Source of the DNA: Acidobacteriota bacterium
GTDB taxonomy: Bacteria > Acidobacteriota > Blastocatellia > UBA7656
Direction: 5' to 3'
Length of the DNA: 34,682 nt
NCBI GenBank assembly: GCA_016201275.1
Contig: JACQDB010000142.1
Location: 1-34,682, forward strand
The notes under the pieces were generated by a model, which saw only the letters and a program-made list of their open reading frames with translations, made no database searches and was not told the origin of the DNA. Shown here piece after piece: positions 2,587-34,682 of the stretch. Within the stretch, counting starts at the first letter, position 1; every line of letters starts with the position of its first letter. The position numbers and the translations under genes are program-made.

Positions 2587-3621
2587 TTATTTCGGATAGC
2601 GAAACCAAACTTCGGCGACGGCCTCCTGCGCGTTCGATAAAAACCCGGCAGGGAAGGCAGGCAGAGGATTGGCAGCTAAGATGGCGCGTTCGGCAGCGTT
2701 GTTGACCAGAGCGTTGGTGCTGCGTTGTTTGATGTAAGCCGGTGCCACGCGCCCGTTGGCAATTGAGCGTATCGTGCCATCGCGAGCGATCTTCACCAGG
2801 ATGATGACGTATTGCGTCTCTGCCGCATCCAGGGTCGGCGGATTGTAGTTGCGACTGAAAATCTGTTGAATCAATCTGCCGTAAGCGGAGCCGCCGGGAA
2901 GCCCTGTGCCGATGCCGGAGCCGCCGCCGGAACCGATGCCGACGCCGCCCACTGTCGCAGGGGTTGGCGAGCCATAGCTTCTGCCGAGTTGTGTAGTGGG
3001 CGTAGGCGATTGGCCGCGCTCTTCTTTGCCGGTGAAGATTTTTTCCTGTTGCGGGGCGACCGGACGATCTGTTTTGATCGCATCAGGATTGGGCTTGGCT
3101 TTATCGGTTGGCGGCAACAAGGCTTCGTCGTTGGCGTCCTCTGGTCTGGCGGTTTCAAGGCGAGCGTTGTTGACGGGATTGTTTTCCTTGCCGATGAAAG
3201 CGACCGGTTGGGGTTTGGCAAATCCCAGAATCGCCGACGGCTCCGCGACGCCCACCTCTATAGCGCCGCCACCACCTTCGCCGCCTTCGCCTTCACCCGC
3301 CGCGACCATTTGTTGAACGGCGTTGCTGTGAAACCAGAAAATCAGCAACGCCAACCCCACAACATGAAAAAGTATGGATAGCAACAGGCTGAGTTTTGTA
3401 GTCTGTAGTCCGTAGTCCGTAGTCCGTAGTCGGTTGCCCGTAGTCCGTAGTTCGTAGTCCGTAGTCGGTAGTCCGTAGTCTGTAGTCTGTTGCTGGTTGT
3501 CGGTTGTCGGCTGCTGGTTGTCGGTTGTTGGTTGTCCGTTAGGTTTTTGCATCTTGTACCACTTCATGAGTTGTTGTGAAACTGTTCGGACTTCTACCTG
3601 TTCACTCTTTCTTGAAGCCAC
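2587..3621 (-). CDS. TonB/TolA-like energy transducer with heptamer-encoded N-terminal tail
   Basis: Probable inner-membrane energy transducer linking an ExbD/TolR motor to the outer membrane. One transmembrane helix lies at about residues 77-98 (LSLLLSILFHVVGLALLIFW). A Gly/Pro-rich periplasmic linker follows, then a C-terminal TonB-like domain (about 250-344) containing the segment VIILVKIARDGTIRSI. The 76-residue cytoplasmic tail is unusual: residues 29-75 are encoded by 20 tandem 7-nt units and read as TTDYGLR-like heptapeptides. The start is uncertain. The listed start is GTG at 3621; ATGs at 3567 and 3552 are alternatives, and none has a convincing ribosome-binding site. All of them lie upstream of the repeat, so a change in copy number would change the frame. 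It sits between exbD and tolB, where TolA is expected. Confidence 0.8.
   Translation of the reverse strand: MASRKSEQVEVRTVSQQLMKWYKMQKPNGQPTTDNQQPTTDNQQQTTDYGLPTTDYELRTTGNRLRTTDYGLQTTKLSLLLSILFHVVGLALLIFWFHSNAVQQMVAAGEGEGGEGGGGAIEVGVAEPSAILGFAKPQPVAFIGKENNPVNNARLETARPEDANDEALLPPTDKAKPNPDAIKTDRPVAPQQEKIFTGKEERGQSPTPTTQLGRSYGSPTPATVGGVGIGSGGGSGIGTGLPGGSAYGRLIQQIFSRNYNPPTLDAAETQYVIILVKIARDGTIRSIANGRVAPAYIKQRSTNALVNNAAERAILAANPLPAFPAGFLSNAQEAVAEVWFRYPK
3397..3536. repeat. Heptanucleotide tandem repeat (20 units) inside the tonB-like gene
   Basis: Twenty consecutive 7-nt units, 140 nt in all. On the plus strand the 3' part (3397-3487) is mostly CGTAGTC/TGTAGTC with a few variants, and the rest is mostly GGTTGTC. 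Because 7 is not a multiple of 3, all three frames through the GGACTAC type encode the same heptapeptide in rotation and none contains a stop. Gain or loss of one unit would shift the downstream frame. A related degenerate heptamer run is at 23078-23119. Confidence 0.92.
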
Positions 3622-4506: not shown

Positions 4507-5268
4507 CGGTTCACCTCCGCGTGTGCGGAGACCATGATTTTCGCGCCGCTGATTTCGATTTTGGTTCCGGTTCACCTCCGCGTGTGCGGAGACCATAGGC
4601 AACCCTTATTCCATAGCCGCCCAAACAGCGGTTCACCTCCGCGTGTGCGGAGACCATGTGATTGTGCGCGGCATAAGCGCGTGTGGAAACGGTTCACCTC
4701 CGCGTGTGCGGAGACCATTTTTTTTACCGCTTCACGGGGTGAGTCCCCGTCGGTTCACCTCCGCGTGTGCGGAGACCATTGCAATTGCAAAGGCACGGCA
4801 GAACTTCACGGCGGTTCACCTCCGCGTGTGCGGAGACCATTCGCTCACGCCTACACAATGTCACGCGGCGGGGGGTTCACCTCCGCGTGTGCGGAGACCA
4901 TCGGTGATTGCGGCGCAGTCGGTCACGTCGCCGCGGTTCACCTCCGCGTGTGCGGAGACCATCGCCATCCCCAAATCTGCGCCGGGGTCAAGGTCGGTTC
5001 ACCTCCGCGTGTGCGGAGACCATGCCAACAGCAAGCCCGTAACCGTAACCGGTTCCCGGTTCACCTCCGCGTGTGCGGAGACCATTTCTTGCCCGACTCG
5101 ATCCAGTCTTCGATGATCGGTTCACCTCCGCGTGTGCGGAGACCATTCTGGCATTGGTATTCTCCGGGTAAGGTGATGCGGTTCACCTCCGCGTGTGCGG
5201 AGACCATTCATATTCATCTTTCAGACCTTCAAGAAAAAGCGGTTCACCTCCGCGTGTGCGGAGACCAT
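4507..5268 (-). CRISPR. Type I-E CRISPR array, distal block (13 repeats, 12 spacers)
   Basis: Thirteen 29-bp repeats start at 4507, 4568, 4629, 4690, 4751, 4812, 4873, 4934, 4995, 5057, 5118, 5179 and 5240. Spacers are 32 bp, except 33 bp before 5057. The plus-strand repeat begins CGGTTCACC and ends GGAGACCAT. Its complement begins ATGGTCTCCGC and ends GGAGGTGAACCG, the type I-E form with an inverted stem, so transcription is on the minus strand. The repeat at 4873 has G instead of C at plus-strand position 1, which is the PAM-derived last base in crRNA orientation. The outermost repeat (4507) is not degenerate, which is unusual for a trailer end. Confidence 0.98.
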
Positions 5269-6100
5269 CCCTTCGCTGCGAAGAGCAAGGAAGTAGGGGA
5301 ACTCTCTTTCACGCCAGCGATTGCCGAAGAATATGCCAAGCGAGCAGAATCCTTTTCGCAGTTTGCGTCGACGGAACAGTTGCGCAAGAACTACAAGATT
5401 CTTGCCAACGCTCTGCAAGCCGGGATTGACAGCGGCAAAGAATTTGCCATTGGCTTACCCGAATATGAAAAGCACGGGGTTTTTCATAACGCCCACGTTG
5501 CTCTCAAGCGCCTATATGGGAAAGACATCTCGAACCCAGAGGCGCGGAAACTTCCACACTTCCGCGAAGCGGCGGCGGGGCTGATTCGCAAAGGTTACCG
5601 ATCAGCCGATCCGCGCCGAATCGCGCATGAGGCTGCGGCGCATATTAACAATGGTCAGATAGATGAGATTGGGTTATCCTTAGACCAGGCATTCGACTTC
5701 ATGAAGTCCTACTTTCAGCTTATTGAAAGTACCTATGGTACGGATGCGCTGGCGGTCTTTAACCGCCTGGATAAAGCTTATCAGGAGATTCGAGATGAAG
5801 TTGCCAATCAAGGACAAGGGACAAAATCAAGCCAAAGAGCCAACCGGCTTGGCACAGACCTATCAAATCTGGAAGCACCAGGGCGACGAAGCGTTGAAGA
5901 AACAGTTGGCGGAGAATCAGAGAATCCGCAAGGCGAACCAGGAGAAGACAGCGGACCGTTAGCTTCGCTTGATGACATCCCGCTTCCGCAAAAACTCAAA
6001 GAGGGATTGGCCGAGATCGCCCGCTCCTTTATCGAAGAGGGTAGAAGCGATTTCGATAACCTGATCACTGAGTTTCTGCCCAAGATGCAATCCGCATCAC
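5269..6100 (+). CDS. 832-bp internal gene fragment occupying a spacer position in the CRISPR array
   Basis: The segment begins immediately after the repeat ending at 5268 and stops immediately before the repeat at 6101. One plus-strand frame is open throughout, about 277 codons with no stop and no start at the junction, so it looks like the interior of a larger gene. The translation is protein-like. It includes LRKNYKILANALQAGIDSGK, RRIAHEAAAHINNGQIDEIG and a C-terminal LAEIARSFIEEGRSDFDNLI. The last resembles a short segment common in large polyvalent proteins of phages and plasmids, a family match made from memory. A nested 55-codon open frame (5795-5962) with an AGGAG upstream also exists and is probably a shadow. 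The segment may be a real insertion or an assembly bridge. Confidence 0.6.
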
Positions 6101-7716
6101 CGGTTCACCTCCGCGTGTGCGGAGACCATCACATCGCAGGCGACTCGCGCCGTGCGCCCGTCGGTTCACCTCCGCGTGTGCGGAGACCATAGGCCGAGTG
6201 CCGGCCAGCGCCGTCTTGCGGTCGGTTCACCTCCGCGTGTGCGGAGACCATAGCGCGAAGCGATGCTGTTTTATCACGCCAGCCGGTTCACCTCCGCGTG
6301 TGCGGAGACCATTGCCCTCACCACATCAACCGGCTCCGGGTTCTCGGTTCACCTCCGCGTGTGCGGAGACCATTATTCCAAGCCGTGCCGTGAGTGAGCA
6401 GCATTCGGTTCACCTCCGCGTGTGCGGAGACCATCGACTGAAGAAGTCGAAGAAAGAAGGATAGAACGGTTCACCTCCGCGTGTGCGGAGACCATCTGAT
6501 GCCGTGCGCCTGCGTGCGCGGATTCCACGGTTCACCTCCGCGTGTGCGGAGACCATATTCAGCCAGCAAATGCGAAGACAATCAAGAGCGGTTCACCTCC
6601 GCGTGTGCGGAGACCATGTTGACAGTTATGCCCAGCAATTGCGCGACAGCGGTTCACCTCCGCGTGTGCGGAGACCATGTGACGCGATCCGCGCCAGCCG
6701 AGGCCGCGTCCGGTTCACCTCCGCGTGTGCGGAGACCATTCAGGCCGAGCGTTTTCGATTGCCGCAAAAATCGGTTCACCTCCGCGTGTGCGGAGACCAT
6801 CTCGGTGTTGTGAAAATCGAGCCGGTAGGGGTCGGTTCACCTCCGCGTGTGCGGAGACCATCCCTCCGCTCCGCTCATCCCTGCCCCCGGTAACGGTTCA
6901 CCTCCGCGTGTGCGGAGACCATGATGAACTCAGCCGACGCCGCTTTTTTTCGCCCGGTTCACCTCCGCGTGTGCGGAGACCATGTTAAGGGCTGTGGTGG
7001 TTTTGGCGCATCCACCCGGTTCACCTCCGCGTGTGCGGAGACCATCGTGACCGACATTGAATTCGAGGCTTTCATAACGGTTCACCTCCGCGTGTGCGGA
7101 GACCATAACTTCTCAGACTCAAACGGCAGTCATAGATTCGGTTCACCTCCGCGTGTGCGGAGACCATTATACCTGCACATCAAAGAGGAACGGGAAAAGC
7201 GGTTCACCTCCGCGTGTGCGGAGACCATGATAGCCTGCTGAAACTCGGCAGGCTCGTTCTCGGTTCACCTCCGCGTGTGCGGAGACCATCTGCGATTCGG
7301 CGGGGGCTTGCTTGGCTTCCCCGGTTCACCTCCGCGTGTGCGGAGACCATTTTACCGTCTCGACCGGCGTAATGGCGTCCTGCGGTTCACCTCCGCGTGT
7401 GCGGAGACCATGTGTTCGCCGTCGCAGCGATGCAGCAGACCGCTGGTTCACCTCCGCGTGTGCGGAGACCATTGGGGAATTGAAAGTGATTTTGTCGCCG
7501 TGCGCGGTTCACCTCCGCGTGTGCGGAGACCATCGGCGCGAGCTTGTTTTCAGGGAACGAATCGGCGGTTCACCTCCGCGTGTGCGGAGACCATAATAAC
7601 TAAGCGTTTCGTAGTTTCCACAAGCACGGTTCACCTCCGCGTGTGCGGAGACCATCTTTTTCTCATGTGCAGTGATGACTGCATCGCCGGTTCACCTCCG
7701 CGTGTGCGGAGACCAT
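6101..7716 (-). CRISPR. Type I-E CRISPR array, leader-proximal block (27 repeats, 26 spacers)
   Basis: Twenty-seven 29-bp repeats identical in type to the distal block, starting at 6101 and then every 61 bp up to 7688. The spacer between 6955 and 7017 is 33 bp; the rest are 32 bp. The repeat at 7444 has T at plus-strand position 1 instead of C. The leader side is at 7716, next to cas2, so the newest spacers should be those near 7660-7687. No duplicate spacers were noticed. Spacer sources cannot be named without a search. Confidence 0.98.
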
Positions 7717-7732
7717 ACTGCAAAACAAAGGT

Positions 7733-7761
7733 TTTATAGCGCAAAAGAGCCGCTATGTCTA
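7733..7761 (-). promoter_or_regulatory. Leader promoter for the CRISPR array
   Basis: On the minus strand, TAGACA (7761-7756) and TATAAA (7738-7733) are separated by exactly 17 bp, a good sigma70 match (5 of 6 and 5 of 6). The -35 starts one base after the cas2 stop codon. Transcription would start roughly 10 nt before the first repeat at 7716. The gap between cas2 and the array is only 46 bp, so this promoter fills most of it and any further leader or IHF-type site must lie within cas2. Confidence 0.7.
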
Positions 7762-7762
7762 A

Positions 7763-8059
7763 TTATTCGCCTGTGGTTTTCGGAGTCTGGGGATGGCGAA
7801 TCAGCAGCAATCCTTCAAAGTCTTCGACTCGGCGAGAGGTGTTGCCGGAAAAACGGATAGACAAGCCCTGCTCGTTTGCGGCGTTATATATCAGCATTCC
7901 AGCCCCATCCCGCATCTTGCTGCATACCATCTTCCAAAGCATATCGCGTACTAAGGCGGAGAGGTTGCCGATGAAGACACCAGCCTTTAACTCCAGCATC
8001 CAGCGAGTCAATTCGCCGCGCACACTGGTTGGTACACTCTCAAGAATGATCACTACCAT
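7763..8059 (-). CDS. cas2: CRISPR-associated protein Cas2e
   Basis: Adaptation protein that forms the Cas1-Cas2 integrase complex. The product has 98 residues, close to E. coli Cas2 (94). The start MVVIILESVPTSVRGEL is set by AGGAGG about 7 nt upstream and by homology; an upstream in-frame ATG at 8158 lies inside cas1 and is rejected. The segments RGELTRWMLELKAGVFIGNL and VEDFEGLLLIR are typical of the Cas2e subtype. It overlaps the 3' end of cas1 by 20 nt and is the last gene before the array. The C-terminal tail after LLLIR is polar and short. Confidence 0.96.
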   Translation of the reverse strand: MVVIILESVPTSVRGELTRWMLELKAGVFIGNLSALVRDMLWKMVCSKMRDGAGMLIYNAANEQGLSIRFSGNTSRRVEDFEGLLLIRHPQTPKTTGE

Positions 8060-8999
8060 AGTCGTCCTCCTGATGTTGGTCGGCGTAGTTTTTACCGCCT
8101 GCGGTTTCGCCGCTGTCGCTATCCCAGAGACTACCTGGCGGGTCTTCGGCACGATCAAAATCTTCGCTGTCTTCGAGCTTGCCGATGCCTAACACCTGCT
8201 GTATATCCGGCACGATTCTCTGCAACAGCTTGTCCTTATAGAAGCGATCTCGACAGGCACGGCGCACTCGGGTTTCCAGTTGGTCACTACCTTCGGCCAC
8301 CATTTGAAACGAGATCGGCACGGTAATTTCAGCTTTATACAAATCAGCGACATCGTAAACAAAGGACAACATCTTGCCGGTATGAATAAAGCCGAGCGCT
8401 GGCGAAAAGCCTGCCGATACGATTGCCGCATGACAGACGCCATACAAACAACTATGCGCGCAGGACAAAGCGCGATTGATGGGATCGGCATCTTCCCACT
8501 TGTCGCGTTGGTAGGCTCGCCCCTTCCATTCAACTCCCGAATCACGACTCGCTTTAGCGTAGGCTTCGCGGACGCGAATGCCTTCACGTCCGCGAATCTG
8601 TTGCAAGGTCAAACCATTTTCCAACGGTTCGGGAAAGCGCATCTCGTATAACTTTCTGACCACCTGTAAACGCATGGCCGGATCGGAACTCAACCGCGCC
8701 TGATGCAACAGGTGACGCGCCGAGCGCGTTTCGCCAGTTCCTTGCGCGTAAAAACGCACCCCGCCTTCGCCTGTCCACAACACCAGACAGCCGTTGTCTG
8801 CCAGAGCTTTTACGGCAGCGTGAGTAATGCTGGTGCCGGGACCTAAAAGCAGAGCCGTCAACGAAGCACAAGGCACAGGCACTTTGCCGCTGGCATCATG
8901 CAGAGCGATGGCTTTGTCTTCCTGGTCAATTTTTTTATGCTCGACATAGAGGTAACTGAAACTGTCGCGCACTTTCGGTAACGCATGAAGGTCTTTCAT
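8040..8999 (-). CDS. cas1: CRISPR-associated endonuclease/integrase Cas1 (type I-E)
   Basis: Catalytic subunit of spacer integration. The product has 319 residues. The ATG at 8999 has AGAGGTG just upstream and is preferred to an ATG at 9062 that lies inside cas6e. The sequence closely follows E. coli Cas1e, with LGPGTSITHAAV, LRFPEP-like EMRFPEPLENG, SCLYGVCHAAIVSAGFSPAL and GFIHTGKMLSFVYDVADLYK. The metal-binding residues correspond to Glu139, His206 and Asp219. The last 30 residues are Asp/Gly/Ser-rich and include the part that overlaps cas2 in another frame. Confidence 0.97.
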   Translation of the reverse strand: MKDLHALPKVRDSFSYLYVEHKKIDQEDKAIALHDASGKVPVPCASLTALLLGPGTSITHAAVKALADNGCLVLWTGEGGVRFYAQGTGETRSARHLLHQARLSSDPAMRLQVVRKLYEMRFPEPLENGLTLQQIRGREGIRVREAYAKASRDSGVEWKGRAYQRDKWEDADPINRALSCAHSCLYGVCHAAIVSAGFSPALGFIHTGKMLSFVYDVADLYKAEITVPISFQMVAEGSDQLETRVRRACRDRFYKDKLLQRIVPDIQQVLGIGKLEDSEDFDRAEDPPGSLWDSDSGETAGGKNYADQHQEDDYGSDHS

Positions 9000-9003
9000 A
9001 AAT

Positions 9004-9732
9004 TCACCTCTGGGAAGGAGCAAAGGAAAGCAGACCGAATCCGTAAGCCTTGCCTGTGCCAATTCCGTTGACTAACGCTTGTTGGAATTTGCTTGCATCG
9101 GTGACCACCAATTCGCCGTCGAACAACACCGAGCCAAAAGTCATGTTGTTATCGGAGTGAAGAATTTTCCCTTTAACCTTCTGCTCTTGTCCGGCTTGCA
9201 CATTTGCGACATCGGCATTGAGACGCAAGGCTTTGATATGAAAGCCACAATCTAGCTCTTTGCGTTTGAGCCATTCGATCTGTTTTTGTTGGTCACGAAT
9301 CTCAACGCGCTTGCCGCGTTTTTTCGGATTGCTCTCTTTTTCAAGACGATCAGCATAGAGGCGGCGCGTCGGATTGGCTCGCAAGCGAAAACGCAGATGA
9401 CATCCTTCTTTTACCTCTTTGAATATTCCCTCAACAGGTTTGCAGGAAGGATTCAATTCGTCCGCATCTGCTTGTAAGAAGTCATCAGGCAAGCGACTCC
9501 AATCAGGTTGTACACGCGATTGCACCAACAAAGAAAGTTTGTTTCGTTGAGAGGAAATTTCGATGCGGTATAAAACGCCAAACTCCTCACGGGCTTTCTG
9601 GTCTGCGCTTTCGATTTTTGGAAAAGCCTTGAGAATCAGGCAATGCAGTTTTTGACAATCACGCAAGCCGCTTTGCACGTCACGGCTGCGCGGATTCAAA
9701 ATCAAACGAGAAAGATAAAGTTCATGGCTCAT
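9004..9732 (-). CDS. cas6e: Cas6e (CasE) pre-crRNA endoribonuclease
   Basis: Cleaves the repeat hairpin of pre-crRNA and stays bound to the 3' handle in Cascade. The product has 242 residues; E. coli CasE has 199. GGAG lies about 10 nt before the ATG at 9732. The N-terminus MSHELYLSRLILNPRSRDVQ matches the CasE N-terminal ferredoxin fold, and His30 in QKLHCLI lies where the catalytic His is expected. The C-terminus GIGTGKAYGFGLLSFAP is the glycine-rich loop of the family. It overlaps the end of cas5e by 11 nt and is followed 4 nt later by cas1. Confidence 0.95.
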   Translation of the reverse strand: MSHELYLSRLILNPRSRDVQSGLRDCQKLHCLILKAFPKIESADQKAREEFGVLYRIEISSQRNKLSLLVQSRVQPDWSRLPDDFLQADADELNPSCKPVEGIFKEVKEGCHLRFRLRANPTRRLYADRLEKESNPKKRGKRVEIRDQQKQIEWLKRKELDCGFHIKALRLNADVANVQAGQEQKVKGKILHSDNNMTFGSVLFDGELVVTDASKFQQALVNGIGTGKAYGFGLLSFAPSQR

Positions 9733-10417
9733 TTTTTTCTTCTCCTTTCGGACACCCAATCCATTTAGTTTTCACATAGCGAATGGTGAAGCGACGTGCA
9801 GCAAACGACAGCGGCACGTCGTGACGCGCTTCAGTAGCCAATGAATCTAACGGCTCAATCACGCAAGGCAGTTTTTCTTCTTTCGAGTTCCAATGGGTTT
9901 GTAAAGCCTCTTCGAGCCTTGTGTCACACAGCACACCAACGCCCACAGGCACAGATGGCACAAATGACTTGCGCCCCAAAAACAATTGCCAATGCGGACG
10001 CGCTAAAGCTTCATCAAGCGTTATCAGCAAGGCTTGGTTATCGCTTTCCAAGCCGACGAAAAAACTCGCATCGGCAAGGTAGTAGCGCGTTGAAACAACG
10101 GTGTCGCCTTTCGCTCCGCTTGCTTTCACGACTCCGTAATCATCGTGTCTTGAGCCACCCGCCGTGTGATAGTCTTTTTGCAACACGCCTGCGCGGTCAA
10201 CGCGAACACCCATTCGCAAGGCTGCGAGTTCCGCCAACTTTGGTTTGTCTTGATTGTCTGGATGAGTTTCGTCACGCGGCTTGCCCAGCGCGGCGCAAAG
10301 CAGACCAATTACTCCACTCTTTGAAGGCTCAAGTGTTGTGTCGCGTATGATGAAACGGCTCTGCGTTCCCCAAGATTGCATGGGTCCAACGAGCCGCAAA
10401 AGTAATGTGTGCGCCAT
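9722..10417 (-). CDS. cas5e: Cas5e (CasD) Cascade subunit
   Basis: Caps the 5' handle of the crRNA at the foot of Cascade. The product has 231 residues. The ATG at 10417 follows AAGGAGG by about 8 nt. The start MAHTLLLRLVGPMQSWGTQS is the diagnostic Cas5e N-terminus, followed by TTLEPSKSGVIGLLCAALG. HTAGGSRHDDYGVVKASG and the later LGRKSFVPSVPV segment are also typical. The stop overlaps the start of cas6e, so the two are probably translationally coupled. The gap from cas7e is 13 nt. Confidence 0.96.
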   Translation of the reverse strand: MAHTLLLRLVGPMQSWGTQSRFIIRDTTLEPSKSGVIGLLCAALGKPRDETHPDNQDKPKLAELAALRMGVRVDRAGVLQKDYHTAGGSRHDDYGVVKASGAKGDTVVSTRYYLADASFFVGLESDNQALLITLDEALARPHWQLFLGRKSFVPSVPVGVGVLCDTRLEEALQTHWNSKEEKLPCVIEPLDSLATEARHDVPLSFAARRFTIRYVKTKWIGCPKGEEKNEP

Positions 10418-10430
10418 AGCGTAAACCTCC

Positions 10431-11633
10431 TTACGATTCGTTTGGTTTGATCGCGCTTTTGATTTGAGTAACCAAAGCATCAATCATTGAGTTGCCGTTT
10501 TCTGCTTTCACACTATCGCCAAGCGCCTCTAACTTTTTCATCTTTGCACTGGCAAACCACGCACCTTTGATTCCTTTCTTGCCGTACATCTCGGACATCT
10601 CGCCCCAATGCTGATCTAAAGCTTTGATGGACTCTTCAACCAAATCACCTTTGTTTGTCTGCACAGGTTTCGCGAAAGCGTTGGTCAACGATAACAAGCC
10701 TGCATCACGGGCTACGACCATCACAAAAGAAGGCTTCTGTTGCGCCGCGTAACTGTTCTGTTTGCCAGTAGGCACAGCATCGACGAAGGCGCGAACGAAA
10801 GCTTCTATCGTTGCTGCTTCGAGTTCGGGGTCTTGCAAGTTGGTGTTGAGTTGATTGAGATCAAGGTTGGCGTAGCGATAAAAACAAGCAGAGGTGAATT
10901 CAAGCGTTCCCATCATCCCCGCGCCTGTTTCGCCTTGCGGCAACAGGTCATCAACGGCTGTGTAGAAGTCAAACTCAACGCCGGTTTTGTGCGTTGAAAT
11001 CGCGTGGGCAACTTGGCTGGCAGCATCAACACCAAGCTGCATTTTGCCAAAAGGTTTCTTGCTGTCAATCTCAATCATTCGACCAAAAAGAGCGATGTCG
11101 GGGGATTTAAGAGATTGAGCTAATGCTTTACCAAGCCCCTTAATAAGCTCATCTTTCCTTTCATTATTTCCATCAAGCAAGCCGCTATTTTTGAAAAGGA
11201 TGACCATTTCTTCAATGGCTTTAGAATTCATAAAAAGAACAAGTTTTGTATTTTCTTTTTCCTTCTCTTCATCTTCACTTTTTTTCACTTTCGGACGTTC
11301 AATACCTGCTTCATTAAACACCTCGGCGACAACTTTGACTATTTTCTCAGGCGGGATTTCTTGTTCTGAGATTTTCTTTGCAATCTCTATAATCAACCTT
11401 CTTGTTCTAACACTGCCACCATTTGCTTCAAGCACGCTGCGAAAGTTGCTCTCTCTACGGATAGCGCGTTTGAAACATTGACTTGAGATGCGAGCGCGAC
11501 GATAGCCGCCGAAGTCGCAATCTTTCGGCGCGCCTGTGTCGCTGCGATTTAAGTTTGACGGGGCGAAATTTTGAATGACATGAACTTCTACGAACCTAAC
11601 TTTTTCTTCCGCTTTGCTGTTTTCTACTGACAT
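10431..11633 (-). CDS. cas7e: Cas7e (CasC) Cascade backbone subunit
   Basis: Forms the helical backbone of Cascade along the crRNA spacer. The product has 400 residues, longer than E. coli CasC (363). AAGGAGA precedes the ATG at 11633. The N-terminal signature SNLNRSDTGAPKDCDFGGYR, followed by RARISSQCFKRAIR, is typical of the family. The extra length includes a charged insert near residues 116-130 (KKSEDEEKEKEN). The C-terminal part holds SFVMVVARDAGLLSLTNAF. A 28-bp REP-like element lies in the 69-nt gap between cse2 and this gene. Confidence 0.96.
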   Translation of the reverse strand: MSVENSKAEEKVRFVEVHVIQNFAPSNLNRSDTGAPKDCDFGGYRRARISSQCFKRAIRRESNFRSVLEANGGSVRTRRLIIEIAKKISEQEIPPEKIVKVVAEVFNEAGIERPKVKKSEDEEKEKENTKLVLFMNSKAIEEMVILFKNSGLLDGNNERKDELIKGLGKALAQSLKSPDIALFGRMIEIDSKKPFGKMQLGVDAASQVAHAISTHKTGVEFDFYTAVDDLLPQGETGAGMMGTLEFTSACFYRYANLDLNQLNTNLQDPELEAATIEAFVRAFVDAVPTGKQNSYAAQQKPSFVMVVARDAGLLSLTNAFAKPVQTNKGDLVEESIKALDQHWGEMSEMYGKKGIKGAWFASAKMKKLEALGDSVKAENGNSMIDALVTQIKSAIKPNES

Positions 11634-11672
11634 AATCTTTTCTCCTTTTTATAGTTTGTTGAATCACAGAAA

Positions 11673-11700
11673 CCCGCCCACTGCTACAGGCGGTACTGAC
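11673..11700. repeat. 28-bp REP-like repeat, copy 1
   Basis: This copy matches positions 13887-13914 at 24 of 28 bases. On the minus strand it begins GTCAGTACCGCCTG. It sits just after the cse2 stop codon. The second copy encodes the end of Cas3, so the family seems to land at the 3' ends of genes in this operon. Confidence 0.8.
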
Positions 11701-11702
11701 TT

Positions 11703-12236
11703 CTATTCCTTCCAGAAGGCTTTTGCCCAAGCGCGTTGAGTACGTCGGTCATCGTCGAAATCCCAAAACTCAACTGCTCTGAGTAACTGCACCCAATCAA
11801 TCGAAATCTCTTTTGATTTGAGCAAACCTACGGCTTGACGCAGATGCTCCGAGAGGTCTTCACTATGCGCGTTAAGCAATGCAGTGAAACGACGCTCGAC
11901 TCCATCGCCGCCCATCTCTGCTTGCAATCGTTTGAACGACGCGCCGAGATTGGTCTTCTCGTTGTTATCGCCGCTAGACCAACTTGGACTGGGATACAAA
12001 CCGAATAGCGTTGCGACGAGGTGATAAGCCTCTTCTTGTTGATAACGCTTCATTCGATTGGCAAAACGACCAAGATAACGATAGATGCCCATCTCTTCGC
12101 CAGGTTTCTTGCCAAGTCCGCGCCGCAAGGTTGCCAATGCCGCACGGTCATCTTTTTCGTACAACTTTTCTAACGCTTCGATGAACTCTTCTCTCAACTT
12201 CTCGCCGGATGTTTTCTCTTTTACTGGTGATGTCAT
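11703..12236 (-). CDS. cse2: Cse2 (CasB) Cascade small subunit
   Basis: Small subunit that stabilises the R-loop in type I-E Cascade. The product has 177 residues, about family size, and is all-helical by composition. Family-like features are LREEFIEALEKLY, RAALATLRRGLGKKPGEEM, YRYLGRFANRM and YHLVATLFGLYP. The C-terminus ends with LLRAVEFWDFDDDRRTQRAW, resembling the W.F...V...W region of CasB. Its ATG overlaps the cse1 stop in a TAATG arrangement, indicating translational coupling. Confidence 0.95.
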   Translation of the reverse strand: MTSPVKEKTSGEKLREEFIEALEKLYEKDDRAALATLRRGLGKKPGEEMGIYRYLGRFANRMKRYQQEEAYHLVATLFGLYPSPSWSSGDNNEKTNLGASFKRLQAEMGGDGVERRFTALLNAHSEDLSEHLRQAVGLLKSKEISIDWVQLLRAVEFWDFDDDRRTQRAWAKAFWKE

Positions 12237-13861
12237 TATTTACCTCCTGCTGTCTGTTGTTGTGGAAACATTGCCGCAAACGCTTTGCGCGTTCTGCCCA
12301 TTAGTTTGTTGAATTCGGTTTCTGCTTTGGTGATGCCTTTGAAGTCACGCGCCGAGCCGCTGAGACTGTTTGTCGCCATTGCGAACGCATCACGCGCCGT
12401 GCTTTCCAAATGTCGCGCCCACTTGTACTCGTCTTCACGGTTTTGATTAGGAATGTCTGTGAGAAGCTTTTTGAAATGAACTTCCAAACGCGACCAATAA
12501 AATTCTTCCGCGCCGAAACTGCTTGCGACCTTGCTTGCGTCTTGGTCTGTTGAGATTTCTTTAGCAAGCGTCTTAATACTCGCTTTCAAGTTCTCGGCAA
12601 TTTTTTCTGCCAGCCCCAGCGCATTTTCTAAAATCTCTACAAGTTCCGCATCACACAAATAACTAAGTGGCAGCGGCAGTCGTTCGCGTGACCAAAGAAA
12701 CACGGATGCTTTATCGTTGGCGAAACCATAGACAATAAGCGAATATGCAGGTTCTGCTTTGACGACGCCTTGATCTCTCGCTGATTCAAGCATTGCCAGA
12801 TGATTGAAAACTTCTGGTCTTTTATCCTTCTTCTTTTCATCTTTGTTTTGCTGCAAGAGTGCGTGACTATCACGCCACAAAGCTTTGTTCGGGTTGATGT
12901 CTTTCGTTTTGTATCCCTTGTCTGCGCTTGCGATGTAGCATTTGAAAGGGTCAAACAAAGGAGAGGCATCCGACAGTTTGAGATTTTGTAGAAGCTGACA
13001 ACGGCGCACCAAAGTTGAGCCGTTATCCGCATCGCTTTCAACTACCAGATGAATACGCCGACTTTGCCAAGTCAAGTAATCAAGATAGCCGCGTGGTTGC
13101 GTGCCTTTCTCGTTTGGAATTTCAAGATTGTTGTGTTCCCAAACCGGCGTGTCCTCTGCATTGCTTCTCCAAGCTATCGGTGTTGCTTCGGTGTATGGCA
13201 ACAAATTCAAAGCAAGCGTTTCAAAAAAATTGTTGCCTTGCGCCAATACCGCATAACCGTTGACCAAAGTTGCGTTGCTCAAATTGAACGGCTGACTGAC
13301 CCCGCCGCCCACGGAAAAAGCCTGTCGAGCAATCAGGTATCGCACTGACTCAGCGGGCGTAAACGCTTTAGGCGAAGCGTTGAAACTGTGGTCAAACAAA
13401 GTGGCGTTGTTTCCCGTCGCGGCTTCGTGCGCGAGCAATGCTATTGGGTGAAGTTCTACATCTTCGGGTTCAGCATTTTGACTTTCTTGCTTTTTCGTTT
13501 TTTTCTTTTCACTTGCCTCTTTCTTCATTCGCGCCACTTGATAAAACGGACGCGCTTTATCAAAAAGCTCAAAGCGATGTCGCCATTTATCCAAGTAATC
13601 ATTGATTGTCTTTTCATCCCATTGCCTTTTTGTCCACAACTCTTTCCATTCATCGAAGTCTTTGGGACCTCTCAGCGCGGCGTGTATTACTGCCAGCAAG
13701 AAACGATGCAAAGCCACGGTGACAAGCGGCGAATGGTCTATAACTTCTCGAATGTCGTGCGCCTGTAGCAAACAATCGCGCAGGCTCAACTCACGCGCTT
13801 CGTTGTCCTTCAACATCAAGCAAGGTATCCAGCACTCCTCTGTCAAATTATATTCGGGCAT
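12236..13861 (-). CDS. cse1: Cse1 (Cas8e/CasA) Cascade large subunit
   Basis: Large subunit that reads the PAM and recruits Cas3. The product has 541 residues, near the usual 500-560. The N-terminus MPEYNLTEECWIPCLM matches the family start (F/YNL...WIP). Other family-like segments are HSPLVTVALHRFLLAVIHAA, RPFYQVA and PRGYLDYLTWQSRRI. Two Lys/Glu-rich inserts, EKKKTKKQESQN (about residue 118) and NKDEKKKDKRPE (about 338), are low-complexity and probably surface loops. The gene follows cas3 by 22 nt; AGGAGG occurs upstream of its ATG. Confidence 0.95.
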   Translation of the reverse strand: MPEYNLTEECWIPCLMLKDNEARELSLRDCLLQAHDIREVIDHSPLVTVALHRFLLAVIHAALRGPKDFDEWKELWTKRQWDEKTINDYLDKWRHRFELFDKARPFYQVARMKKEASEKKKTKKQESQNAEPEDVELHPIALLAHEAATGNNATLFDHSFNASPKAFTPAESVRYLIARQAFSVGGGVSQPFNLSNATLVNGYAVLAQGNNFFETLALNLLPYTEATPIAWRSNAEDTPVWEHNNLEIPNEKGTQPRGYLDYLTWQSRRIHLVVESDADNGSTLVRRCQLLQNLKLSDASPLFDPFKCYIASADKGYKTKDINPNKALWRDSHALLQQNKDEKKKDKRPEVFNHLAMLESARDQGVVKAEPAYSLIVYGFANDKASVFLWSRERLPLPLSYLCDAELVEILENALGLAEKIAENLKASIKTLAKEISTDQDASKVASSFGAEEFYWSRLEVHFKKLLTDIPNQNREDEYKWARHLESTARDAFAMATNSLSGSARDFKGITKAETEFNKLMGRTRKAFAAMFPQQQTAGGK

Positions 13862-13883: not shown

Positions 13884-16778
13884 TTACCCGCCCGCTACCG
13901 CAGGCGGTACTGACTTGTTCTTTTCAATGACAATTCCTAAATCAAGGTTAAGGCGAAATCTCCAATCGCCAATTGGTTGGCTGTTGCCGTCCGCCTCAAC
14001 TTCAACCAAACGGTGATGGCGCAACAATGGCGATTCGCTCCACTCGGACGGCGACTTACGATTGATCAACTCATTAGCTGCCCCGCGCTTGGATATGTTC
14101 ACGGAGCGTTCAAGCAATTTTTTGACAAGGCGGATTTCCGGTTTCGATTTGAGCAAATGGTTTTCGTCGGGTTTCAAAAAGACGACAGAAATGCTGGGCG
14201 TGTCATCATCGCGTGTTTGCGCTTGTCGCGTGCGATGATAGTCAGGACTGTCTTCTTCCAATTGCAGATTGAAATGTTCGAGCAAATTATTGTCGTGCGG
14301 CGAAAGAATGCGATAGGTGTTCGCATGGGTCTCCTTCGTGTTGCGCTTCTCAAGCCTCTTCGCTTTAGTTTCATCCCAAAAAATTTTCATTGTTTCATCT
14401 TCATCTTTCGGAAACTCGCGCTCATCGTCATAAACTTGCTCAATCAAATTTTCGACATCGGCAGGGATGTTGAGGCTTTCGCATTTCTTCAACTCAAGCC
14501 ACGAACGCAGCAAGATATGTTTGTCGTAAATCAAACCGCTGTGACCAAAGTCGAGAGCCTCTTTGTTATTCTTTTCAGGCTGGCAAATCCACAAGATGGG
14601 GCTTGCGATTGCGCCGCGCCCAGAACGCTCGTGCCGCCATTCGCGCCCTGAGCGTTGTAGCAACAAATCAATAGGCGCAAGGTCTGTGATGATTAAGTCG
14701 AAGTCTATATCGAGGCTCTGTTCGATAATTTGCGTAGCCACAAGGATGGCGCAATCAGGGCGTTTGACTTCGTGTTTGTTTCCATCACGGTCTGTGACTT
14801 CCTCGCCGTCTTTACCAAAACGAATCAAAGTGCGAAGCTCACGCTCTGCGCGGTCTTTGAAAAGAAAACGGGCGTGCAATAAATCAACAGTGTCATAGCC
14901 ATCATCTGCTTTGCCCGAAAAGATTTCTTTCAATCGCCTATAAACTTTTTGCGCTCGGTCAACGGTGTTGCATATCACCGCCGCGCAACCTCCGTTTGCC
15001 AGTTGTTGGCGCAATATCTCGCCAATTTCAAAGGGTTCGTTTTCATCTTCATTGATGCGACCATCAAGCCAACGCAGATGCAAGGTGCGTGAGCTTTGCT
15101 CGTTGGTTTCAATTGGTTCAATCCCTGTATGGTTCGCAATCAGCCAAGTGATGAGCGGGTAGTGTGCCTCTTTGACTGCATCTGTATGGTGGCTTAATTC
15201 TTTGCCTAAACCTTTCGTATATGCCTCAAGCAATTTCTTCCGCCTGCTTTTGGGCAACGTCGCCGACAACAAAATCACTGGCGAACCAAGCGCAGCTAAC
15301 CATTCCAACAGACGCTCTAACAAGGTGGACATATAAGCGTCGTAAGCGTGAACTTCATCAATGATGATGGTTTTGTGCGCCAAGCCAAACAAACGCACGA
15401 AGACGTGCCGCGTTTGCAATACAGCCATCAAAGCTTGGTCAACCGTCCCCACGCCGTAAGGCGCAAGCAATCCGCGCTTGCGATACGTGAACCATTCGGC
15501 GGCAACTACTTTGCCCAGACAGTGTTTGTCTTTACACATCCCGTCATCGCTTACACCTTCGAGTTGAAATGCCTTCTCTCCGCTTCTCTTCAAGGCTTCA
15601 AACTCTGCTGATAGTGATGCGTGTCCGTGAAGCAGTTGCAGTAACACTTTGTCTTCATCAAAGCGCGTTGCCAAAAATTTCTTCACACGAGAGAACATTT
15701 GATTGCTTGTCGCTTGAGTCGGGAGGGCGAAGTAAATGCCTCGTTGACAGAGTTGCACATTCCAATAATCGGCTAGAAACATAGCCGCTTCGGTTTTGCC
15801 CTCGCCCATCGGCGCTTCTATGACAACAATACCAGGCGAATTGAGTTTACTCGAAATTTGTATAGCGGCTTTCTGTACGCCACGAAGCGGAAACTTTTTC
15901 AGATTAGGAAACAAATCTTCAAAAGAGCGTGTGGCGGTTGGCTCTGTCCAATTCAACCAGCCAAGTTGTGTCAACGCTTTGCGTGCGTTGTCTTTTGCTT
16001 CTTGAAAATAATCTTGTGCGTTGAGGGTCAGCGGATTTTCAAAATCTTCAATCTTGCAAGGAAAATAATCCGCATTTGAGCCAATCCAATCAGCGACTGA
16101 AACCAACCCTGCTAAAAACATAGTAGCCGCGTGGTCAAATTTGGCGTCAGATGGAAAAGCAATAGGGGCAGGGAGTTCAAGTAACCGGGCAAGCAAAAGC
16201 GTCAAATCTGTTCGCGCTTTTGCCCACGCTTCATTGCCAATCCTACTTGGTGTTTTTAGTGCGGTGATGTCTTCGCTGCGTGGAAAAACGCCGTGATGTG
16301 CGCCGATTAAAACTGCTATGCGATTGGCTAATTCGTTTGGAAGCAGAAACTCTTTCTCAAGTATTAACGGCAATGTTCGAGTTGTGACGTATCCGTGCGG
16401 GGCTTTGCTTGCCTGCTCTACGGAACGCAAATGAATGCGACTGAAGAGAGTGTTGTCGTAGAGTTTCAACAACTTTTCTGTTTGCCTGGCTTTTTCATAA
16501 ACACCACGCAAAGCAAAAGGCGGTGACGCTTTGCCTAAATCGTGCAAGCCTGCAATCCAGGCGACAAGTTTCTTGGTTGTTTCTTCATCAAGCCCGAACG
16601 CTTTTGTAATTCGATTTTTCAAAGCCGATGAAAGAACTTCATCCCACATTGTCAACGTCACAGCAGCAACATCAATCAAGTGACACAACAACGGATGATA
16701 AGCATTTTGATTCTCTTTGTCATGCGAAGTCTTTGCCCAAAAAATAAACGGATTAAATGTGGATTCCGTGTCTTTCAT
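13884..16778 (-). CDS. cas3: Cas3 HD nuclease-helicase (type I-E)
   Basis: Degrades target DNA after Cascade binding. The product has 964 residues. The N-terminal HD nuclease shows His28, the His79-Asp80 pair in AGLHDLGKASPPF, and IGAHHGVFP (about 158-166). The helicase motifs are complete: Walker A EAPMGEGKTEAA (321-332), DEVH (474-477), LLSATLP (503-509), and motif VI QRSGREWRHER (708-718) after QIIEQSLDIDFD. The ATG overlaps the upstream WYL gene stop as ATGA. The last ten residues, KSVPPAVAGG, are encoded by a REP-like repeat (13887-13914), so the natural C-terminus has been extended or replaced by a repeat insertion. Confidence 0.97.
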   Translation of the reverse strand: MKDTESTFNPFIFWAKTSHDKENQNAYHPLLCHLIDVAAVTLTMWDEVLSSALKNRITKAFGLDEETTKKLVAWIAGLHDLGKASPPFALRGVYEKARQTEKLLKLYDNTLFSRIHLRSVEQASKAPHGYVTTRTLPLILEKEFLLPNELANRIAVLIGAHHGVFPRSEDITALKTPSRIGNEAWAKARTDLTLLLARLLELPAPIAFPSDAKFDHAATMFLAGLVSVADWIGSNADYFPCKIEDFENPLTLNAQDYFQEAKDNARKALTQLGWLNWTEPTATRSFEDLFPNLKKFPLRGVQKAAIQISSKLNSPGIVVIEAPMGEGKTEAAMFLADYWNVQLCQRGIYFALPTQATSNQMFSRVKKFLATRFDEDKVLLQLLHGHASLSAEFEALKRSGEKAFQLEGVSDDGMCKDKHCLGKVVAAEWFTYRKRGLLAPYGVGTVDQALMAVLQTRHVFVRLFGLAHKTIIIDEVHAYDAYMSTLLERLLEWLAALGSPVILLSATLPKSRRKKLLEAYTKGLGKELSHHTDAVKEAHYPLITWLIANHTGIEPIETNEQSSRTLHLRWLDGRINEDENEPFEIGEILRQQLANGGCAAVICNTVDRAQKVYRRLKEIFSGKADDGYDTVDLLHARFLFKDRAERELRTLIRFGKDGEEVTDRDGNKHEVKRPDCAILVATQIIEQSLDIDFDLIITDLAPIDLLLQRSGREWRHERSGRGAIASPILWICQPEKNNKEALDFGHSGLIYDKHILLRSWLELKKCESLNIPADVENLIEQVYDDEREFPKDEDETMKIFWDETKAKRLEKRNTKETHANTYRILSPHDNNLLEHFNLQLEEDSPDYHRTRQAQTRDDDTPSISVVFLKPDENHLLKSKPEIRLVKKLLERSVNISKRGAANELINRKSPSEWSESPLLRHHRLVEVEADGNSQPIGDWRFRLNLDLGIVIEKNKSVPPAVAGG
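13887..13914. repeat. 28-bp REP-like repeat, copy 2, encoding the Cas3 tail
   Basis: This copy matches 11673-11700 at 24 of 28 bases. Read on the minus strand it encodes the SVPPAVAGG end of Cas3 and supplies the bases next to its TAA. Confidence 0.8.
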
Positions 16779-17791
16779 TTTTTAACACCTCTTTGTTCAC
16801 CTAATGAATTACTAGACATCGCGCTCATTGCTTCTATCTCTTTGCGTATGGCTTGGCGCAATTCTTCCGGGGCGATGACTTCGACGTGCGCGCCGTATTG
16901 CATGACAAAGCGCTTCACTCCATCTAATGCTGTCACCTGCATACGCATTCGCAATCTGCCATCCGGCAGTTCTTCGCGCTCTTCGCTCTTGTGCGCTTTG
17001 CCGCGTTCGCGCATCCAGCGCGCTTGGTACTCGTCGAAAATGAATTCGACAGCTATAGGCTGGCCGCCGCGAATCATGGCAAAACCGGAATCAAGATAGG
17101 CTTGGAGGTCAAAGCTTTCCGGCCAGGTGAAAGCGGTCTCGGTGATTTCCAGTTCGCGGATTCTGCCGACGTGAAAATCTCTGATCTCACCGCGTCGGTG
17201 ATCGAAGGCGATCAAGTACCACTCGCCTAAATAATTTCGTAAGTGCAAAGGGTCAACAAGGCGTCGGCTCCATTGTCCGCGCGTCGCCGTGAAATAAGCC
17301 ATCTGTAAACTCAGGCGTTTGATGATGGCGCGCCCGAGCTGGCGAAAGGTGTTGTCGTCCAGTTCAGAGGTGATGGCGGTCTCGAACGAATACGCCTCGG
17401 TCAGTGCGTTTATATCAATGGAAACGCTATTTGTCATGGCGTTGAGGACTTTGGCAAAGACTTGATCTATCAACTTGCCTATGGCTGTGCCTTTGTAGGC
17501 TTGCGCCATTCTTTCGGCCAGCAGCAGGACTAACAATTCGCCTTCGGTCATCTCTATGCCGGTGAAAGGGAAGGTCGGCTCGGTGTAATACCAGCCGCGT
17601 TGTTCTGCCGAGTAAGCAATCGGTAAGCGCAATTGATCGCGCATAAAATCGAGTGTACGTTGCCCGGTTTTGGCTGACACTTCAAAATGCTCACCAATGC
17701 TTCGAGCATTCGGATAACGGTTTGCAGCTAATTGGTGAGCTATCCAAAAAACTCTGGCAAAATGGGTCTGACGCTCGCGGTTCGTTTTCAT
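16775..17791 (-). CDS. WYL-domain transcriptional regulator leading the cas operon
   Basis: Probable DNA-binding regulator of the cas operon. The product has 338 residues. The N-terminal helix-turn-helix (about 1-70) includes RSIGEHFEVSAKTGQRTLDF. The central WYL domain (about 155-225) carries the core GEWYLIAFDHRRGEIRDFHV with the following GRI, and a WCX-like C-terminal segment follows. Its TGA overlaps the cas3 ATG (ATGA), making it the first gene of the cas operon. GAGAGG lies about 9 nt before the ATG at 17791. The short inverted repeats just upstream could be its operator, so autoregulation is plausible. Whether it activates or represses cannot be read from sequence. Confidence 0.92.
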   Translation of the reverse strand: MKTNRERQTHFARVFWIAHQLAANRYPNARSIGEHFEVSAKTGQRTLDFMRDQLRLPIAYSAEQRGWYYTEPTFPFTGIEMTEGELLVLLLAERMAQAYKGTAIGKLIDQVFAKVLNAMTNSVSIDINALTEAYSFETAITSELDDNTFRQLGRAIIKRLSLQMAYFTATRGQWSRRLVDPLHLRNYLGEWYLIAFDHRRGEIRDFHVGRIRELEITETAFTWPESFDLQAYLDSGFAMIRGGQPIAVEFIFDEYQARWMRERGKAHKSEEREELPDGRLRMRMQVTALDGVKRFVMQYGAHVEVIAPEELRQAIRKEIEAMSAMSSNSLGEQRGVKK

Positions 17792-34490: not shown

Positions 34491-34682
34491 TAATCGGTGG
34501 TTGCTTCTCGGTCTGCGAAAACTGCAAGACTCGGCGCTAAGTGAGTAGCCAAAAGTTTTTACAAAAATAATGTAACGACGCAGCCCTCTTTGCCCCGCCT
34601 TACTTTTACCCATAAGTCAGAACTTCATCAACTGCGATAGTTTTTTAGCCCGCGAAGTGGGCGATAGCATATAGCCCAGTGC
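34491..34682. other. Downstream gap ending in a dispersed repeat
   Basis: No gene was seen. The final 40 nt (about 34643-34682) match, in reverse orientation, the CCCGCTGCGCGGG / CACTGGGCTTTATGC repeat family at 18084-18338, and run off the window end. Confidence 0.65.

Follow-up and report, generated by a model that had tools for sequence, protein, structure and literature searches.

The CRISPR array of this acidobacterial draft genome raises the question of how 832 bp of apparently foreign coding DNA came to stand between two repeats, exactly where a single spacer should be, and whether they truly stand there in the chromosome. CRISPR adaptation is held to be strictly length-gated, and the original prediction for this locus had regarded the capture of such a piece as unprecedented and had preferred an assembly error. 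Its description of the occupied slot, and of an internal fragment of a most likely foreign gene, stands; the assembler error is not supported, and the word unprecedented is too strong.

The window, i.e., the whole stretch of DNA that was analyzed, is contig C41 (34,682 bp) of a draft genome of 6.84 Mb that consists of 162 contigs and is 98.7% complete. Its features are listed in Table 1. The cas set adjoining the array is complete (cas3-cas8e-cas11-cas7-cas5-cas6e-cas1-cas2) and identifies a type I-E locus, and as this operon adjoins the array at high coordinates on the minus strand, the leader side was placed there. Allowing up to 3 mismatches, the repeat has 40 matches in the host genome, all of them inside the array. 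Of the 39 spacers, 38 fall within 31–34 nt (32 nt in 36, 33 nt in 2), and the remaining one, the 27th from the leader, is the 832-bp insert; we refer to such inserts as mega-spacers. Within the array the repeats vary at a single position, in the copies at 4873 and 7444; it is the PAM-side base adjoining the spacer, as would be expected if that base derives from the prespacer, and by the rule given in an excerpt of PMC10011333 the repeat position corresponding to base 6101 is normally PAM-derived. Elsewhere in the window, a TonB-like gene (2587–3621, minus strand) contains tandem 7-mers like GTAGTCC or GTTGTCG at 3398–3539 within a long frame.

Table 1. Coordinates of the CRISPR array, the mega-spacer and the adjoining genes in the window.
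Feature	Position	Strand	Remarks
Type I-E CRISPR array	4507..7716	-	40 repeats of 29 nt; leader side at high coordinates
Repeat, leader-distal flank of mega-spacer	5240..5268	-	perfect copy of the 29-nt repeat
Mega-spacer	5269..6100	+ (open frame)	832 bp, internal gene fragment, 277 codons without stop
Leader-distal 33 nt of mega-spacer	5269..5301	-	proposed normal ruler end (inferred)
GAG, candidate PAM retained in mega-spacer	5302..5304	-	33 nt from the leader-distal end
Repeat, leader-side flank of mega-spacer	6101..6129	-	perfect; base 6101 is G in leader sense
Leader, probable	7717..7762	-	between array and cas2; by position only (inferred)
cas2e	7763..8158	-	matches begin at residue 33–34, true start probably internal
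cas1e	8040..9062	-	residues 22–328 of 340 align with solved Cas1
cas6e	9004..9759	-	
cas5e	9722..10483	-	
cas7e	10431..11633	-	
cas11e	11703..12236	-	
cas8e	12236..13861	-	
cas3	13884..16778	-	
WYL-domain protein	16775..17791	-	adjoins cas3

As the original prediction had it, both flanking repeats are intact, in fact perfect, and the insert fills exactly one spacer slot. It is also the uninterrupted internal gene fragment that had been described: frame 1 is open over 277 of 277 codons with neither a start nor a stop bounding it, the two other forward frames are broken, and the G+C content by codon position (0.62/0.42/0.52) is coding-like. The insert is single-copy, matching only itself in its own genome, and with repeat-spacer units on both sides its arrangement is that of a pseudo-spacer of the SiL-E1 kind (see below). 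The triplet GAG, predicted on the PAM side for a spacer end of 33 nt, is present there in leader sense, and the triplet before the last 32 nt is AGT. When the outer 40 bases at either end were compared with each other, no direct repeat longer than 4 nt and no inverted repeat longer than 5 nt was found. A comparison of the other spacers of the array with the insert gave no match (best 20 of 32 on two strands, with a shuffled maximum of 19 on one strand).

Several candidate explanations were rejected on these grounds. An insertion sequence (IS) was dismissed as the mega-spacer has no Pfam or PHROG match and no repeats longer than 5 nt between its outer 40 bases, and a casposon as it has neither terminal inverted repeats nor a Cas1 of its own. 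Campbell-type integration at one spacer should have left a copy of it at each end of the insert, and there is no such repeat; a functional gene inside the array is contradicted by the missing start and stop. That 832 equals 26 × 32 was considered as more than a coincidence and dropped.

The search that had been proposed as a check, against phages by DNA and protein and against plasmids by protein, gave no match to the mega-spacer, and its source was not found among viral contigs (searched by protein and with a two-sequence profile) or genome contigs. In 162 genomes of the class searched by DNA, the matches listed outside its own copy covered only 18–44 bases at E-values of at least 0.004 and were taken as chance. 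The sole other match in a protein search of 98 related and 396 phylum genomes, its own genome included, was a frame of more than 2,300 amino acids in another genome (G015), with 31% over 97 residues (96–192 of the insert's 277; E-value 3 × 10−6, BLASTP 2 × 10−8). The G015 protein has an ART-PolyVal domain and a match to PHROG 21376, which marks it as a polyvalent protein of phage type; relatives of its ART-PolyVal part are present in 14 phage records, and it is adjoined by a 1,471-amino-acid frame with a PHROG match and a DUF5907 match. The claim that the insert resembles phage or plasmid coding sequence is thus upheld to the extent that a phage-type relative exists, the support being this one distant protein, and judging from it a phage polyvalent-protein gene is the most likely source of the mega-spacer.

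The host genome, a 162-contig draft, is probably a metagenome bin, and a 33-nt stretch shared between a spacer and its target would link their graphs at small k. A short-read assembler could in this way have passed from one spacer to another through a phage genome, as the original prediction preferred. The traces left by the assembler speak against such a chimera. When 102 ends from 59 of the 162 contigs were compared, seven pairs shared exactly 141 bp (six identical terminal stretches and one end-to-start overlap), one of these pairs being the end of the mega-spacer's contig with contig C75, and every other shared length was below 141. The exact sharing of 141 bp is the signature of a de Bruijn graph with a final k of 141, which we take to be the usual top k of MEGAHIT. 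That program was run with -k-max 141 in the work described in an excerpt of PMC9927493. At k = 141 a junction needs words of 142 bases, coming from reads or from contigs of smaller k, whereas the identity between a spacer and its target extends over only about 33. The window's outermost bases (1–116 and 34537–34682) belong to dispersed repeat families of at most about 146 bp that occur both at the ends and in the interior of contigs (the first 300 bases of the window have 72 matches and the last 300 have 49, self included), and such families lead to breaks in assembly.

The same question was addressed by simulation with a simplified multi-k assembler that included contig carry-over and pruning and used error-free reads, with no paired reads or local assembly. 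Under the bridge model, with two ordinary spacers and the phage in the sample, neither false junction appeared in 350 + 72 runs (0/422). With a real insert, one contig spanned both junctions in 25/25 runs without phage and in 25/25 with phage at 0.05x the depth of the host, falling to 9/25 at 0.2x, 1/25 at 0.5x, 1/25 at 1x, and 0/25 at 3x; a smaller simulation gave 6/6 without phage and 1/6 at equal depth. An abundant phage sharing the insert would therefore be expected to break the path across it, and under this model the unbroken contig is a strong, but not final, argument for a real insertion and for a sample in which the phage was rare. Considering the 141-bp overlaps, the lack of simulated chimeras, and the comparable mega-spacers in an isolate and on plasmid records described next, we regard the assembler bridge as very improbable.

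To find such inserts elsewhere, species genomes were scanned with a degenerate repeat (68 stretches, 512 spacers of 31–34 nt), which revealed two more mega-spacers that have neither IS nor leader. The first, in the isolate Streptomyces albidochromogenes DSM 41800 (L179), measures 630 bp, is flanked by perfect repeats, is the third entry after a recognizable leader, and matches its own genome once. The second, in S. anulatus JCM 4721 (L163), is 803 bp long and carries a DUF6221 gene; in complete plasmids of other strains the segment between the repeats measures 797 bp (L211), 850 bp (L212), and 603 bp (L214), and these were treated as one lineage with L163 and counted once. The DUF6221 segment occupies the same array place in several strains, with a common right end and different left ends, and these differing leading ends imply a history beyond one event. 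In a further record, L213, the DUF6221 segment has repeats on one side only. For the L179 and L163 inserts, no source reaching their ends was found, with 4 of 9 plasmid matches examined.

Plasmids were surveyed in 13 records with I-E-like arrays and then in 13 more, 12 of which are titled complete sequence, the exception being that of L249. The second set held 12 arrays with 423 spacers of 31–34 nt and gave one mega-spacer without IS or leader, on Roseomonas marmotae p1318-5 (L249). It is 292 bp long and lies at the leader-distal end of the array (at 6475 in leader sense), and with a single last repeat beyond it, it may be among the oldest entries. The L249 insert is phage-like: a relative, mostly of its second half, is encoded in 81 viral-contig stretches (80 kept), and part of it matches PHROG 62. 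Apart from itself it matches one other Roseomonas plasmid over 45%.

The PAM of type I-E systems is AAG. The ordinary spacers of the window's array, compared with phages and plasmids, gave no convincing protospacer among the matches listed, so that AAG may not be the host system's own PAM. In both L179 and L163, AAG precedes the leader-distal 32 or 33 nt of the insert, and L249, which was fetched later, has AAG before its last 32 nt. The 832-bp insert has GAG instead of AAG, and only at 33 nt, the length of 2 of its 38 companions; its own P value is about 0.1. Taking each insert's own trinucleotide frequency as the null, AAG is found at offset 32 or 33 in 3/4 members of the core set (the window's insert, L179, L163, and L249; P = 9 × 10−5) and in 4/8 of an inclusive set (P = 3 × 10−5), values that are optimistic as the first two cases, L179 and L163, had suggested the rule. 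The inclusive set adds four less clean gaps: AAG is present at this place in the 976-bp gap of L214 and missing from those of L222 (759 bp), L226 (2251 bp), and L228 (1522 bp). When offsets 20 to 60 were compared, three of the four core cases came together at 32–33 and nowhere else.

Gaps made by insertion sequences served as controls, and AAG at 32 or 33 was found in 0/4 of them; three are IS by annotation (IS982 in L222, IS21 in L254, IS3 in L261), and the fourth, in L176, is a fragment by our own reading with decayed flanking repeats. Five non-IS, non-leader gaps were met after the rule had been noted, and 2/5 have AAG (P = 0.006), or 1/4 (P = 0.08) if the doubtful L214 gap is left out. The sorting of gaps into leader, IS, and unexplained was done by eye and not blind. 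The PAM-plus-ruler mark at the leader-distal end of mega-spacers is therefore suggestive, not established. At the other end of the L249 insert, viral homologues have ATG at the corresponding place in 10/26 distinct loci (38 of 80 examined), a weak hint as the insert's last codon does not follow the homologues' codons.

Our preferred reading, which we hold with slightly less than even confidence, is that the 832 bp are truly in the chromosome and that the type I-E adaptation machinery, using an over-long prespacer, inserted a continuous piece of a mobile element as a single unit. It draws on the structure of the insert, its single copy, the assembly k, the other mega-spacers, and the PAM-plus-ruler mark in three of them; Cas1-Cas2 would be the agent, with an untrimmed PAM side or two complexes, and a phage the probable source. 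In the proposed course of events, Cas1-Cas2 would have been seated on a PAM-bearing site of the mobile-element DNA, and the non-PAM end, cut by the normal ruler, would have become the leader-distal end of the mega-spacer. The PAM side would not have been trimmed at once, or would have been capped by a second Cas1-Cas2 on the same molecule, leaving about 800 bp attached, the far end of which would have been joined to the opposite side of the repeat. The repeat would have been duplicated by repair, and 26 ordinary spacers would then have been added on the leader side. A leader-distal end of PAM plus 32–33 nt, with the PAM kept inside, is what would be expected if the first joining took its normal course and the PAM side kept its length.

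In E. coli, according to excerpts of PMC10011333, trimming and integration begin with the non-PAM end, which is joined at the leader side; the PAM end is shielded, its trimming comes late, and the PAM supplies the final G of the new repeat. Type II-A Cas1-Cas2, when purified, integrates longer substrates in vitro without their prior processing (PMC8034620, in excerpt). Among the matches listed in the open-licence literature searched, there was no in vivo type I-E acquisition of hundreds of base pairs. It also counts against the over-long prespacer that the Cas1-Cas2 complex measures 33 bp, so that long DNA has to form a loop or be bound by two complexes. As a wider and more tentative proposal, which we think possible but would not call probable, type I-E Cas1-Cas2 may integrate hundreds of bases in one step at low frequency, the non-PAM end obeying the 33-nt ruler and the PAM side remaining long. 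If this is true, mega-spacers would be natural fossils of acquisition with failed PAM-side trimming, a partial return to casposon-like integration that recurs in distant bacterial groups (an Acidobacteriota genome, Streptomyces, and Roseomonas).

A search with PF00929 (RNase_T), the family that includes DnaQ and ExoT, gave no match in the host genome (98.7% complete) and a match in 10/14 control genomes. DnaQ and ExoT are among the enzymes said in excerpts of PMC10011333 to trim prespacers in E. coli; a study cited there reports that 3' processing during primed adaptation does not depend on them in vivo. The missing family may be relevant to the trimming of prespacers or to proofreading during replication, but it is only a lead, since four controls lack the match too and the other spacers of the array are normal.

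The original prediction had also taken the two ends of the insert for genuine spacers, and this part survives in so far as the leader-distal end could be PAM-anchored (GAG, 33 nt) and the two-spacer idea can be moved from the assembler into the cell. Two ordinary spacers from the same gene would then have served in a double crossover with the invader, which swapped in its 832 bp. This recombination would yield the same sequence, PAM-anchored leader-distal end included, so that sequence alone cannot separate it from acquisition. Recombination between spacer and target has been reported (PMC8616872, in an excerpt citing Varble 2019 and Watson 2018), and for SiL-E1 it is one of the two scenarios named by Jaubert et al., the other being faulty protospacer processing (PMC3718332, in excerpt). 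The leading repeat ends in G in 4/4 core cases, weak evidence as 38/40 repeats of the window's array do so too, and this would fit a second PAM-processed end, provided either by two Cas1-Cas2 complexes or by two recombined older spacers. Recombination would, however, require two same-strand spacers from one gene and two crossovers, each confined to about 32 bp of homology, and this in each of several unrelated lineages; for the 832-bp insert it would also require the rarer 33-nt length and a GAG PAM. We consider it rather unlikely.

Illegitimate insertion would mean that end-joining placed a foreign fragment inside an ordinary 32-nt spacer and that the two halves of this spacer are now the outermost parts of the 832 bp. 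It is in line with this that the relative covers only residues 96–192 of 277 and leaves the outer bases unaccounted for, and some gaps in other arrays have no PAM mark. Yet such an insertion predicts no PAM at 32 or 33 nt, where AAG is found in 3/4 core cases, and none of the four IS insertions, in which a spacer is likewise split, has AAG there. The outer 40 bases, with direct repeats of no more than 4 nt and inverted repeats of no more than 5 nt, likewise argue against it, and we regard this origin as improbable.

That such an insert is unprecedented does not hold, as Jaubert et al. 2013 had already described a 1.9-kb pseudo-spacer in Sulfolobus islandicus (PMC3718332, in excerpt). In CRISPR_2 of strain LAL14/1, SiL-E1 consists of about 1.9 kb of plasmid-like DNA between identical repeats, and its match to the plasmid leaves no bases unaccounted for; as with the 832-bp insert, itself most likely foreign, a large piece of a mobile element fits exactly between a pair of identical repeats, and normal spacers continue beyond them. 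The differences, as far as the excerpt goes, are that SiL-E1 lies in a family I array of an archaeon, carries five ORFs like those of pING1 plasmids, and has a known source, whereas the 832-bp insert has only the distant partial relative described above. A 58-bp type II-A spacer has been explained by repeat loss (PMC4466440, in excerpt). Among the matches listed in the open-licence literature on long spacers and prespacers, no bacterial type I-E mega-spacer was found. The 832-bp insert is thus a further example, and within the literature searched the first in type I-E, of a kind known from one archaeon, and a possible novelty beside that kind is the regularity (PAM plus ruler) at one end.

Compared with ordinary type I-E arrays as described for E. 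coli (PMC10011333, in excerpt), the locus shares the 29-nt repeats, the variable repeat base on the PAM side, and the full operon, and the leader-distal end of the mega-spacer is consistent with PAM plus 33 nt; it departs from them in length (832 bp versus 31–34) and in the candidate PAM retained inside the insert. Casposon integration as outlined in an excerpt of PMC6977970 likewise involves a Cas1-family enzyme, DNA far beyond spacer length, and a duplicated target, and the same source calls it unclear whether the casposase and Cas1-Cas2 integration routes exclude each other. Unlike casposons, the insert has no terminal inverted repeats or casposase, and Cas2 and a normal I-E operon are present. 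The phage-CRISPR recombination of Varble et al. 2019 (via an excerpt of PMC8616872) would also join array and phage at spacer-protospacer identity, but there it concerns the transfer of CRISPR loci by transduction and not the replacement of a stretch inside an array.

Mega-spacers with one normal ruler end would reveal the failing step, PAM-side trimming, and would record a half-finished acquisition. They make it testable whether short-spacer integration by Cas1-Cas2 and casposase-like long integration exclude each other, and as they hold hundreds of bases of the invader as opposed to 32 nt, they can reveal the identity of elements for which a single spacer is not enough. For users of such data, long gaps in arrays should not be thrown out as misassemblies unchecked.

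Other long gaps were set aside. Intervals that end leader-like were read as array-to-array spacing (L149 817 bp, L214 1685 bp, L222 2112 bp, L226 3245 bp, eight gaps of L228, L257 1424 bp, and L260 5707 and 5714 bp, the last with AAG at 33), the leader labels being our own reading of the gap tails. Two gaps with a badly decayed flanking repeat, in L197 (3301 bp) and L228 (2003 bp, AAG at 33), were rejected; also left out were the 148-bp gap of L226, a 6190-bp gap of L175 that lies above the length limit, and gaps of 60–135 bp, which were taken as missed decayed repeats. L155, L177, L185, L188, L206, and the minus-strand set of L149 had too few repeats for the finder, and with the finder used L258 gave no array. 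The 2251-bp gap of L226 lies between two perfect repeats (10356–12606, reverse strand) on a plasmid of S. europaeiscabiei; it contains an annotated sigma-70 factor and a hypothetical gene, and neither leader nor IS was seen in it. L228, the Streptomyces albus plasmid NZ_CP103061.1, has several I-E arrays in a row, most of its gaps ending leader-like, so that leader-array cassettes are repeated along one plasmid, and the same arrangement is seen in L214 and L222.
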